Of a DNA stretch of 64,000 nt, positions 20,144 through 38,323 are shown one piece after another. The notes below the pieces were generated by a model. It did no database searches and was not told where the DNA came from. It worked only from the letters and a program-made list of their open reading frames with translations. The stretch is from assembly GCF_003428335.1 (NCBI RefSeq), contig NZ_CP031704.1, positions 2,604,001 through 2,668,000 on the forward strand. Reading direction: 5' to 3'. The position numbers and the translations under genes are program-made. Each line of letters begins with the position of its first letter. Position 1 is the first letter of the stretch. The stretch is from Solimonas sp. K1W22B-7. Lineage in GTDB: Bacteria; Pseudomonadota; Gammaproteobacteria; Nevskiales; Nevskiaceae.

Positions 20144-21019
20144 TTACTGCACCTTCACAGGCCCCGACAGCTTCTTGCCCAGCGTGCGGTTGTTGCGGTC
20201 GGCCAGGCCGTTGCCGACGGACACCGTGTAGGTACCGTTCTTCTGCACCGGCAGCACCAGCATCTTCTTGTTGGTGGGTCCGAGTTCCCACTTGCCGCTG
20301 ACGACCTTGCCGCTGGCGTCCTTGACCTTGATGTTCTTGTTGGCGGAGTCGGCGCTGTCGAAAGTGCCGCTGAACATCAGCACCACAGCCTTCTTGTAGG
20401 CCGCGGAGCCGGCGTACTCCAGCGACAGGCCGCTGGGCGAGGAAGCACCCCACCAGGGACCGCTGGCCTTGGCCGGCGTGGGCTTTTTCTTCTCGGCCGG
20501 CTTGGCGGCGGGCTTCGGAGCCTCGGCCTTCACCGGGGCCTGGGCTTTCGGCTTGGGCGCCTCGGCAGCCGGCGCGGGCGCAGGGGCCGGTTCCGCGGCC
20601 GGAGGCGGCTCGACGGCAGCCGGAGCCGGTTCTGCCGCGGCCGGGGCGGGGGCCGCTGCGACCTCGGTGGCGCCCATGTCGCCGCTGGCGGCATCGACGT
20701 CGCCCGACGGGGCCTCGGCGGCTTCACCCGGGGCGGGCTCGGCGGAAGCATCGACCGGGGCAGCCTCCTCGGTGGCGGCGGTGTCAGCGGCCGGGGTTTC
20801 GGCAACCGGGGCTTCGGCAGCGGGCGCGGGCGCGGCCGGCGGGGCGTCGCTGTCCAGCGCAGCCAGGTCCAGCTTGCCGGCGAACACGTCGTCCACCGTC
20901 GGGCCTTCCTGCTGGCGTTTCTCCTCCACATGGCGCTGCGGCGCGATCGTGTGCAGGACGAAGTAGGTGCCGGCAGTGATCGCCACGGCAGCGACGCCAA
21001 GCGTCAGGGCTTTGTTCAT
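20144..21019 (-). CDS. Single-span membrane protein with Ala/Pro-rich linker
   Basis: The protein has 291 residues from the ATG at 21019 (MNKALTLGVAAVAITAGTYF), which follows GGAGG. One N-terminal membrane segment is followed by a long linker of Ala, Pro and Glu (about residues 60-185), and a compact C-terminal domain of about 105 residues (GPWWGASSPSGLSLEYAGSA to the end) that reads as beta-rich. The layout recalls TonB- or FtsN-like envelope proteins in which a flexible linker carries a domain across the periplasm. I do not recognise the C-terminal domain. Confidence 0.7.
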   Translation of the reverse strand: MNKALTLGVAAVAITAGTYFVLHTIAPQRHVEEKRQQEGPTVDDVFAGKLDLAALDSDAPPAAPAPAAEAPVAETPAADTAATEEAAPVDASAEPAPGEAAEAPSGDVDAASGDMGATEVAAAPAPAAAEPAPAAVEPPPAAEPAPAPAPAAEAPKPKAQAPVKAEAPKPAAKPAEKKKPTPAKASGPWWGASSPSGLSLEYAGSAAYKKAVVLMFSGTFDSADSANKNIKVKDASGKVVSGKWELGPTNKKMLVLPVQKNGTYTVSVGNGLADRNNRTLGKKLSGPVKVQ

Positions 21020-36317: not shown

Positions 36318-36358
36318 GCCCGTGTGGCGGAATCGGTAGACGCACGAGACTTAAAATC
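36318..36358 (+). pseudogene. leuZ: 5' half of interrupted tRNA-Leu(UAA)
   Basis: The 41 bases from GCCCGTG through the D arm, the anticodon stem 5' side CGAGA and the loop CTTAAAA stop two bases later and run into unrelated DNA. The missing 3' half is found at 38280-38323. Joined, they give an 85-base tRNA with all stems paired: acceptor GCCCGTG/CATGGGC, anticodon stem CGAGA/TCTTG, variable arm CGCC/GGCG. In E. coli the gene at this place is leuZ, the tRNA-Leu(UAA). As it stands the copy cannot give a mature tRNA. Confidence 0.9.
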
Positions 36359-36459
36359 GGTAAGTCAGCACGGACTTACTTTCTCTCGCGCAATAAAATC
36401 AGTGACTTACAGACTTTTTAGTCCTTGGAAGTCCCTCTAAATCCCCTCAAATCCTCGTC

Positions 36460-36480
36460 AAGTGTGGTGTCACCACACTT
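36460..36480. repeat. Palindrome in left arm of element
   Basis: AAGTGTGGTG-T-CACCACACTT, perfect 10-bp arms. The AAGTGTGG half also occurs as direct repeats near the right end (38139 and 38158), suggesting a shared DNA-binding protein. Confidence 0.8.
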
Positions 36481-36540
36481 GCGGTCTATACTTTTGTCTC
36501 ATGCAGGTTGAGTCGAACTGTGGATCGAGACTCTTGGCGC

Positions 36541-36583
36541 GGCGTACACGGATTTGCAGTCCGCTGCATTGCCACTCTGCCAC
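36541..36583 (-). pseudogene. Inverted tRNA-Cys fragment
   Basis: On the minus strand 43 bases match cysT 36228-36270 at 40 positions, covering the D arm and the whole anticodon arm with GCA. The acceptor and T stems beyond it do not pair (GCTGGAG has no partner downstream), so it is not a complete tRNA. It lies inside the element, opposite to the host gene's direction. Confidence 0.8.
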
Positions 36584-36692
36584 TCCAGCGCTGAAAATCG
36601 TGGAGGAGACAAGGGCGCCGTAGCCTCATTAGTTGTTCAGTCGCGAAACGAAACTACGGGGCGCAACCTCGCGGCGGCGCCCCGTAGTATTA

Positions 36693-36938
36693 CTACGTGA
36701 ACAACAACAGTTGGTACGGATTCGAGCGCCAGTGCTGGCACACCCACTCGGTTCGGCCGAAGCGGAAACGGGTGTATGCGTGCACGAACACGCTCTTGGG
36801 GTTTAGATGGACGGTATCCATTCCGACTCTCCAATGAGAATCGAAGGCGATAGTTGCCCACAGCGCCCGCAGGTCATAAACTGCGGAAGTCTTGGGTAAG
36901 ACAAGCTGTAGATGGTAGAGGGACGCCCTCACTACCAT
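36693..36938 (-). CDS. Small hypothetical protein of the element
   Basis: The 81-residue frame (MVVRASLYHLQLVLPKTSAV onward) is rich in Trp, His and Arg, with RFRFGRTEWVCQHWRSNPYQ near the C-terminus, then LLLF. That tail resembles short basic proteins in mobile elements that end in a PxQLxLF-like sequence; the resemblance is from memory and unproved. It lies downstream of the 268-residue gene on the same strand, with an inverted repeat between. Coding status uncertain. Confidence 0.4.
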   Translation of the reverse strand: MVVRASLYHLQLVLPKTSAVYDLRALWATIAFDSHWRVGMDTVHLNPKSVFVHAYTRFRFGRTEWVCQHWRSNPYQLLLFT

Positions 36939-36943
36939 ACCGG

Positions 36944-36972
36944 CCCCTGTAAGCGTTAGAGCGCTTATGGGG
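36944..36972. repeat. Inverted repeat between the two element genes
   Basis: CCCCTGTAAGCG and CGCTTATGGGG pair with one bulge around TTAGAG. T-rich on the plus side, so possibly a terminator or a processing hairpin. Confidence 0.55.
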
Positions 36973-37030
36973 GCTTCTTCATTTGCGGGGCGGCTTTTTC
37001 ACCCCCTTTTTCCGTTGGTTCGGCTGCTTC

Positions 37031-37837
37031 TTAGTCGGCATTCTTCGCGCCCTTCAAATTCACCATCAGATCGACGGGATCTATATCGTCGTCGTAAACC
37101 TGCGACACGTTCATCGCGAACGTATTGAACCAACGCAGCCGCTGCGCTTCCGGCCACTTCTCTCCGGTCTTCGGGATCTTTCGCAGTAACGCGATCAGCA
37201 GTGGGTCCAACTCCAATCCAGAGAAGTTGTCACCACCACCGCTTGAGCCGCCCGGAGGCGGCGGTGGGGGCGGGGGCGGTGGGGTGTCCTTAACCGCCAC
37301 GGCCGGCATCACAAGGCGATTCTTGCCGTGCTCGAAAAAGCCGGCTTGCTCTGCGGAGCGCTCAAATACTTGGCGCGCGCGGTCCTTCTGCTTCTCAGCT
37401 ACCCCAAGCCCGGCGATTTCTCGCTCCAACGCCGCAGTCGGCGGAAGAACGCCTTCCTTGTACTTTTCGAATAGCGCCTTGAAAAGGGGAACATTCAGAA
37501 ACGCCTCGGCTTTCGCCTTGCGCGCGTTGACGGGGTCAACAATGCGGCGCCCAAGAGGTGACAGCCGATACTTATCGGGGCCATCACTCTCGATGACCCC
37601 GAATAGGCGTGCTGCCGCAAGGTCCGTTCGAAACCCGCTGCTTTTGATGCTCATGTTCAACCAAGCAGCCAACTGCTGCTGCGAGCAATCGCCAGTCCCA
37701 GCGTTGTCATGTATCGCCTTCACAAGACAATCTGCCTCCGCTAGCGGGGCATAGGGGAAGCCAATTTTTGAACGCTGCCGCCCTTCGCCGTCACCCTCTT
37801 CGCCGGTCTCAGGCTTGACATCAAGATGCTCGCTCAT
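37031..37837 (-). CDS. Element-encoded protein of unknown function, DUF5343-like (tentative)
   Basis: The protein has 268 residues. The N-terminal part (FPYAPLAEADCLVKAIHDNA to LLSPLGRRI-like YRLSPLGRRIVDP) looks like a winged-helix or DUF5343-type domain, judged by the alternating helices and the RLSPLGRRIV segment. A run of ten prolines and a GGSSGGGD linker (about residues 188-208) separates it from a short C-terminal part (LDPLLIALLRKIPKTGEKWP, then WFNTFAMNVSQVYD). No integrase or nuclease motif. It is the only substantial gene in the element, so it may be cargo or a regulator. Its promoter region has three CTATCCAA repeats. Confidence 0.7.
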   Translation of the reverse strand: MSEHLDVKPETGEEGDGEGRQRSKIGFPYAPLAEADCLVKAIHDNAGTGDCSQQQLAAWLNMSIKSSGFRTDLAAARLFGVIESDGPDKYRLSPLGRRIVDPVNARKAKAEAFLNVPLFKALFEKYKEGVLPPTAALEREIAGLGVAEKQKDRARQVFERSAEQAGFFEHGKNRLVMPAVAVKDTPPPPPPPPPPGGSSGGGDNFSGLELDPLLIALLRKIPKTGEKWPEAQRLRWFNTFAMNVSQVYDDDIDPVDLMVNLKGAKNAD

Positions 37838-37888
37838 GTGGACGACCTCGCCGATATTCCGAACTGCGTAGTGCCCTTTATACGCCCG

Positions 37889-37946
37889 CTATCCAAATAT
37901 CGCAACAAAGTTGGATAGTTCCCTTGTGGAAAATTGCTCTATCCAA
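37889..37946. promoter_or_regulatory. CTATCCAA repeats upstream of element gene
   Basis: CTATCCAA at 37889-37896 and 37939-37946, and its inverse TTGGATAG at 37911-37918. The first two form an inverted repeat with a 14-bp spacer. They lie 52-109 bp before the gene start, a likely operator or activator site. Confidence 0.6.
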
Positions 37947-38054
37947 AAAAGTCAGCGCGTCTCCCAATGGGGCGATCTGGCAAGTGACAGAAATGGACAG
38001 GAGGGTCTGAGCACCCGGTTCCGCTAAACTTCGCGCTTGCCGCCGAATCTCTCA

Positions 38055-38139
38055 GCCCGTATGGCGAAATTGGTAGACGCAGGTGACTTAAAATCACCCG
38101 TCGTAAGACGTGCCGGTTCGAGTCCGGCTATGGGCACCA
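38055..38139 (+). tRNA. Complete tRNA-Leu(UAA) carried by the element
   Basis: It has 85 bases with CCA. Acceptor GCCCGTA/TATGGGC, anticodon stem GGTGA/TCACC around CTTAAAA, variable arm CGTC/GACG, T arm CCGG-TTCGAGT-CCGG are all paired. It differs from the reconstructed host gene in the anticodon stem and variable arm, so it is not a simple duplicate. It reads UUA codons and should replace the broken host tRNA. Confidence 0.95.
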
Positions 38140-38230
38140 AGTGTGGCGGTTGCGCCGAAGTGTGGCGATTCGGCGCCTGCATGAGACAGATTGGCGTGAT
38201 CTGTGGAAACGTGGCGGATCGGTGTGGCGC
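38139..38230. repeat. GTGTGG repeats in right arm of element
   Basis: AAGTGTGGCG at 38139-38148 and 38158-38167 (19 bp apart), then the related AACGTGGCGG near 38208 and GGTGTGGCGC at 38221-38230. Such short direct repeats beside a crossover core resemble arm-type sites of tyrosine recombinases or excisionase sites. Confidence 0.6.
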
Positions 38231-38279
38231 CCTTTTGCAAGGTCATGTTTTTTCTAAAAAATTAGGGTGACTTAAAATC

Positions 38280-38323
38280 TTGCGCCGCAAGGCGTGCCGG
38301 TTCGAGTCCGGCCATGGGCACCA
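38280..38323 (+). pseudogene. leuZ: 3' half of interrupted tRNA-Leu(UAA)
   Basis: TTG closes the anticodon stem, then the variable arm CGCCGCAAGGCG, T arm TGCCGGTTCGAGTCCGGC, acceptor CATGGGC and ACCA. Upstream of it lies the second core repeat; the local 5' side (GGGTGA) cannot pair with TCTTG, while the distant CGAGA at 36318-36358 can. Confidence 0.9.

Follow-up and report, generated by a model that had tools for sequence, protein, structure and literature searches.

Why should a tRNA-Leu(UAA) gene lie in two pieces in a bacterial chromosome, and what serves in its place? The question is raised by a 64,000-nucleotide stretch of the genome of Solimonas sp. K1W22B-7 (contig NZ_CP031704.1, positions 2,604,001 to 2,668,000 of the forward strand; hereafter the window, in whose numbering coordinates are given), where the two halves of this gene are separated by an insert of 1.9 kb. 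The insert is very probably a site-specific integrative element that a tyrosine-type integrase placed in the host gene at its anticodon loop, and the foreign tRNA-Leu(UAA) carried on it would take over from the broken copy. An insertion at a short attachment core, an exact empty site in relatives and a complete replacement gene were observed; no second tRNA-Leu(UAA) was found in the genome, and no integrase was detected inside the insert.

The interrupted tRNA-Leu(UAA) gene and its empty site

The 5' half of the host gene (36318..36358, plus strand) ends in the 11-mer GACTTAAAATC (core copy 1, 36348-36358), which forms the left junction. The right junction is another copy (core copy 3, 38269..38279, plus strand), recognized from the sequence and a repeat count, and is followed by the 3' half with its CCA (38280..38323, plus strand); both halves and core copy 1 were read directly from the sequence. 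The insert between the two cores (36359..38268) has a G+C content of about 56%, compared to 66.7% for the window. The initial annotation had described a tRNA-Leu(UAA) gene cut in its anticodon loop by a 1.9-kb insert between direct repeats of GACTTAAAATC, and direct reading bore this out. Its statement that joining the halves restores all stems is confirmed by ARAGORN, which draws a tRNA from them; the anticodon stem CGAGA/TCTTG pairs at 5/5 positions. The gene order pgsA - tRNA-Gly - tRNA-Cys - tRNA-Leu was likewise upheld by ARAGORN and the gene calls. With respect to the repeat, the two boundary copies were correctly described, but a third copy at 38085, located in a complete tRNA-Leu(UAA) gene inside the insert, had been overlooked. 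The three copies in the window (36348, 38085 and 38269, all on the plus strand) compare to a chance expectation of 0.00 (100 shuffles). Neither junction forms a tRNA; the 11-bp core leaves the target gene unrebuilt at both ends. The earlier view that the host copy stays broken therefore holds for the copy itself, but not for the genome, in which an entire tRNA-Leu(UAA) gene is provided by the insert.

A mobile-type insert at this place predicts an empty site in relatives, which was found by comparison with three other species of the genus (G048, G049 and G050; G numbers designate genomes and L numbers loci). G049 carries tRNA-Gly, tRNA-Cys and an uninterrupted tRNA-Leu(UAA) gene side by side and lacks the insert. 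The joined halves are identical to the intact genes of G049 and G048 at 85 of 85 bases and to that of G050 at 83 of 85 (2/85 different). As the joined halves equal the intact congener gene, the insert is an insertion and not an intron. The host halves, with 0/85 differences from two congeners, are undecayed though presumably freed from selection, which suggests that the insertion was recent. In G048 the intact tRNA-Leu(UAA) gene lies 94 kb from the Gly-Cys pair, and in G050 it is found on another contig; this separation is probably due to a large island in tRNA-Cys (about 94 kb in G048). Two further features were noted at the congener loci. A tRNA-Leu(CAA)-arm-like fragment, GGTAGACGCAGCAGACTCAAAATC, lies on the minus strand downstream of tRNA-Leu(UAA) in G049 (L009, from 1921) and G050 (L013, from 1359) and is absent from the G048 locus. 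A second, partial tRNA-Cys copy precedes tRNA-Leu in G048 and G050 (L010-L013), apart from the Gly/Cys pair.

The replacement tRNA-Leu(UAA)

The complete tRNA-Leu(UAA) gene inside the insert (38055..38139, plus strand) was identified by ARAGORN and matches the Rfam tRNA family with 57.2 bits. It contains core copy 2 (38085-38095, plus strand), and 12 of its 85 bases deviate from the host gene. The anticodon stems of the host halves (CGAGA/TCTTG) and of the replacement (GGTGA/TCACC) each pair at 5/5 positions, while both cross-combinations pair at 3/5 only; host gene and replacement are thus two separate genes. Among 55 tRNA-family matches in the source genome (G000), the gene at 38055-38139 was the only tRNA-Leu(UAA) found. 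The long-armed tRNAs (at least 82 bases, n = 11) comprise tRNA-Leu with the anticodons CAA, TAG, CAG, GAG and, from the insert, TAA, together with four tRNA-Ser and two tRNA-Tyr. On paper, the broken copy is therefore compensated by the sole tRNA-Leu(UAA) of the genome.

Integrase-bearing elements in other genomes

Related arrangements that include an integrase, with tRNA-Leu divided at the same position, were found in other genomes of the phylum, which gene order and matches to named plasmids suggest to be Proteobacteria. In two family genomes, G021 and G036, a 5' half ending in GACTTAAAATC is followed by a tyrosine recombinase and then by a complete tRNA-Leu(UAA) whose loop contains an insert; the fitting 3' halves are located on other contigs (L110, L112). 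The L109 integrase alone gave matches in 4 of 58 family genomes, two of them strong, and the first two integrases as query gave matches in 1 of 369 genomes of the class. Integrase matches were present in 8 of 398 genomes of the phylum and in 13 of 385 genomes of another class. The integrases of G021 and G036 and five relatives were combined to a query set (A2). No match to the L109 integrase was obtained in named phages, nor in viral contigs with single-protein queries; an integrase alignment retrieved four loci from viral contigs, two of them short and weak. A search of solved structures gave nothing meaningful.

Altogether, 30 integrase loci were tabulated, 13 of which make up 12 tRNA-Leu-linked elements. 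The table excludes the broken integrases of G452 (L143, L149, L151) as well as a number of weak relatives (L121, L122, L124, L144, L145, L154, L155); L150 belongs to the already counted G666 element, and L123 lies on the G036 element. In 10 of the 12 elements, a complete tRNA-Leu is located just downstream of the integrase: UAA replacements in G021, G036, G777 (C26), G1080, G812 and G891, CAA replacements in G176, G666 and one IMG/VR contig, and a UAG replacement in G777 (C20), where the integrase lies beside the 3' half. The anticodon of the replacement is that of the broken gene in 9 of these 10 elements; the tenth (G777, C26) is too degraded in its old half and its integrase for this comparison. 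The upstream tRNA of G812 is a damaged full-length form (36.1 bits) and not a bare half, and G666 has two integrases in succession. In G176, both junctions were found on one contig, about 39 kb apart, with the integrase and the whole tRNA-Leu(CAA) beside the left junction. The G1097 contig stops about 320 bp past the integrase.

At 11 of the remaining 17 loci, a complete tRNA precedes the integrase (10 tRNA-Met(CAT) and one tRNA-Arg), which has the look of ordinary rebuilding. Five loci have a 3' tRNA part only (by eye, three tRNA-Met-like and two tRNA-Lys-like), and L184 is a second integrase of one of these elements. Thus, breaking and replacing goes with tRNA-Leu in this sample of 30 loci.

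Group I introns in the replacement genes

All six UAA replacements (L109/L119, L111/L120, L148, L176, L178 and L182) contain an intron, compared to none of the four CAA or UAG replacements; the six UAA cases are not independent samples. They are interrupted by 218-281 bases after ...GACTT, and the 3' exon starts with AAAATC. As the exons join at these ends, the spliced RNA would again carry GACTTAAAATC. Three of the inserts match the Rfam group I family above its cut-off of 50 bits (56.0, 54.2 and 52.2), and three fall below it (44.5, 38.7 and 32.9 bits; E 2e-8 to 7e-5). The CAA and UAG replacements differ from their target by bases within the core, in G176 beside the core only.

Within the family, 27 of the 29 best-matching loci (the 30 best matches minus the window, a set that favours uninterrupted genes) carry an intron-free tRNA-Leu(UAA). 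Ten interrupted-looking places in seven family genomes were read separately from these 29 loci. The three intron-bearing tRNA-Leu(UAA) genes seen in the family (G008, G021, G036) each adjoin a second tRNA-Leu 5' half.

The simplest reading of these sequences is that the intron masks the core against the integrase that the element itself encodes: as DNA, the replacement would cease to be a target, and the tRNA would be regained by splicing. If the intron is such a shield against re-integration, its position inside the attachment core is explained, and bacterial intron-bearing tRNA genes should show the scars of a broken neighbour. A point against this is the tRNA-Leu(CAA) gene of G041 (L116), which has a group I type intron (221 bases according to ARAGORN; 23.2 bits, below the cut-off) and no broken neighbour within the 5 kb read. 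Introns in tRNA-Leu(UAA) are known from cyanobacteria and one gamma-proteobacterium. Among the literature matches listed, which mostly lie outside subscription journals, no title or abstract opening gives an account of an intron in a replacement tRNA of this kind. The integrase-bearing elements make it testable why group I introns occur patchily in the anticodon loops of tRNA-Leu(UAA) genes, and these intron-bearing elements are a more surprising result than the insert of the window itself.

A wider view would regard group I introns as shields of attachment sites, the elements as a route of introns into tRNA-Leu, and the window as the integrase-less, intron-free end of the same life style, with the tRNA as its one indispensable cargo; for this combined view, confidence and doubt are evenly balanced.

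Group I introns were also seen in tRNA genes of G002 and G008 (L170, L171) that ARAGORN labels Gln and Met and that are tRNA-Ile(CAU)-like by eye.

Origin of the insert

For the window, a tyrosine-type integrase acting on the host tRNA-Leu(UAA) at its anticodon loop would break the gene, because the attachment core spans only the 11-bp loop sequence. The complete foreign tRNA-Leu(UAA) of the element would then be expressed and used in its place, and the present 1.9-kb form would have lost its integrase or be moved by one acting in trans. This course of events is supported by the empty site of the congeners, by the replacement as the sole tRNA-Leu(UAA) found, by its separateness from the host gene in stem pairing, by the layout of G176 and of the 10 of 12 tRNA-Leu-linked elements, in which an integrase is paired with a full tRNA-Leu, and by the arm-site-like repeats at the two ends of the insert.

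Several observations weigh against it. No integrase, intact or broken, was found in the insert by tblastn with seven integrases among the matches listed, and no member of the surveyed integrase family is present in the source genome. Unlike the six UAA cases elsewhere, the replacement of the window retains the core, with different flanking stem bases, and has no intron; the ends of the insert carry repeats other than the CTTACACA-like ones that precede many surveyed integrases. As a consequence, the window is linked to the integrase-bearing elements by layout and not by descent. Among these elements, G1135 shows a tRNA-Leu-like half ahead of its integrase and no replacement was found, and the tRNA-Met-linked locus L183 has a second complete tRNA-Met downstream of its integrase. 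No promoter-like site with at least 9 of 12 matching positions was detected within 320 bp upstream of the replacement tRNA. Furthermore, not a single TTA codon was found among the 13,212 codons of 31 open reading frames (ORFs) of the window, which were picked by a G+C content at third codon positions (GC3) of at least 0.78, a choice that itself disfavours TTA. TTA is read by tRNA-Leu(UAA) alone; TTG should also be read by it, jointly with tRNA-Leu(CAA). The rarity of TTA in these ORFs weakens the expectation that the replacement tRNA would be required for survival.

Given a site-specific integrative element, the insert is either what remains of a stripped element or a cassette that depends on the integrase of another. 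The former, a longer element that lost integrase and cargo by internal deletion and was retained because of its tRNA, is judged somewhat probable. A similarly reduced arrangement exists in G008 (a 5' half, about 190 bp, and an intron-bearing tRNA-Leu(UAA) at a locus without integrase), and the insert contains a tRNA-Cys relic and an IS1595-type passenger gene; on the other hand, it shows no trace of an integrase, and both of its ends survive with their repeats.

The same missing integrase remnant and retained end repeats would suit a non-autonomous cassette that still has its two ends and the replacement tRNA and is moved by an integrase encoded elsewhere, as would the undecayed host halves (0/85 differences from two congeners), which make the insertion look recent. 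A cassette is nevertheless only a tentative explanation. The insert is present as a single copy in its genome, among the 58 family genomes nothing else was seen to match its right end past the tRNA, and the one good relative of its 268-amino-acid (aa) protein in these genomes (60% identical) is found in another setting. Moreover, the three recombinases of the source genome that match the Pfam integrase model PF00589 are XerD and XerC (at the NCBIfam cut-off) and one located beside tRNA-Phe. PF00589 is an incomplete control, as the L109 integrase itself gave no Pfam match at E 0.001; a divergent integrase in the source genome could therefore be missed.

Two nested insertions, via core copies 1-2 and 2-3, would account for the presence of three cores, the last two of which are 184 bp apart, but are rejected as highly improbable because the swapped anticodon stems pair at 3/5 positions, whereas those of the internal gene and of the outer halves each pair at 5/5. 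That the insert is itself an intron, spliced out of a joint transcript, deserves next to no credence: its site in the anticodon loop would fit, but three congeners carry the uninterrupted gene, the insert contains a complete tRNA of its own, and no group I intron (RF00028) match was obtained in the source genome at E 0.01, nor in the window at the gathering cut-off.

Other contents of the insert

Both ends of the insert carry repeats that resemble integrase arm sites and are regarded as candidates only. At the left end, the repeat search detected the inverted pair CAAGTGTGGTG/CACCACACTTG (36459..36481), and at the right end, two copies of AAGTGTGGCG(G/A)TT are spaced 19 bp apart (38139..38170, plus strand); the role of both as arm sites is putative. 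A 13-bp perfect inverted repeat, TGTCTCATGCAGG (36495..36507, inverted copy at 38176-38188), likewise resembles such sites; the possibility of a transposon end was tested at both relatives of the 268-aa gene, where the repeat was not found. A tRNA-Cys gene is preserved with its 5' part as a relic (36540..36583, minus strand; 93% over 44 bases when compared with the host tRNA-Cys, which lies 300 bp away) and is perhaps left from an earlier target or from a second tRNA carried along. An ORF of 81 codons (36693..36938, minus strand) matches no family at cut-off and is probably no gene.

The 268-aa protein is encoded by 37031..37837 (minus strand), an ORF with one TTA codon. It has no Pfam, PADLOC or PHROG match, and searches of phages, plasmids and viral contigs gave none either. 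The 58 family genomes yielded a single good relative, besides two matches that are weak and short; in the 369 genomes of the class, weak and mostly short matches occur in four genomes besides its own. The good relative (G024, about 60% identity) is located inside an IS1595-family transposon (L057, 11076-14559) that has 31-bp inverted ends and encodes a transposase as well as a protease with matches to phage head-maturation protease families. Another relative, in a Thermoleophilaceae metagenome-assembled genome (39-43% identity), is likewise encoded near an IS1595 transposase. Judged by these neighbourhoods, the 268-aa protein looks like the product of a transposon passenger-type gene.

An assignment to known plasmids or phages was not obtained. 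Plasmids (7 records, query without tRNA-Leu) match at the tRNA-Cys relic only. Phage matches were returned for 195 records, and the 40 of them that were listed match at the tRNA only; together with the 268-aa ORF, which has no PHROG match, this gives no sign that the insert is a phage. The 19-base end junction had no match (0) in viral contigs.

Three observations concern other loci. At 20558-20649 of the window, ARAGORN draws an odd tRNA with a two-base anticodon, for which no Rfam match was obtained at cut-off. In the source genome (L067, G000 479000-481500), an array of six tRNA genes (Tyr, His, Arg, Cys, Phe, Asp), some of which score low with Rfam, is perhaps located on a mobile element. 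At L164, ten ORFs around a tRNA-Phe with an integrase contain five TTA codons, all in two genes downstream of the integrase.

Comparison with known systems

Classical tRNA islands are described as products of tyrosine integrases that target tRNA genes, about half of them with crossover in the anticodon loop, and rebuild the target from the attP fragment (Islander, PMC4383910). In the window, in contrast, neither junction forms a tRNA. Breaking and replacing is already known from phages. For actinobacteriophages, including mycobacteriophages, Guerrero-Bustamante & Hatfull 2024 (PMC10865867) describe a 'tRNA-dependent lysogeny', in which the tRNA gene is broken and a replacement is brought along; in that paper, 'intron' appears a single time, within the title of a reference. 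Rhizobium phages similar to vTRX32-1 (42-45 kb) enter tRNA-Leu and carry a replacement tRNA-Leu, and the phage copy, which lacks a 12-bp motif, was proposed to prevent super-integration (PMC8631192, accessible portion). This copy loses the motif by its sequence, with no intron mentioned in that portion, whereas the replacement of the window keeps the core. The tRNA-Leu(UAG) gene is broken and replaced by Lo5R7ANS-like prophages of Sinorhizobium (PMC11476347), while phiLM21-like prophages do not break and replace (PMC12429752).

The window resembles the actinobacteriophage system, as described in PMC10865867, in three respects: a core of about 10 bp, a host tRNA gene that is not rebuilt and a complete tRNA of the same isotype carried along. 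The difference is that those are whole phages with an integrase, whereas in the 1.9-kb insert of the window neither an integrase nor a phage gene was detected. This suggests that breaking and replacing is not limited to whole phages and is able to persist in an insert of 1.9 kb without integrase, by which a chromosomal tRNA gene was exchanged for a foreign one with 12 of its 85 bases changed.

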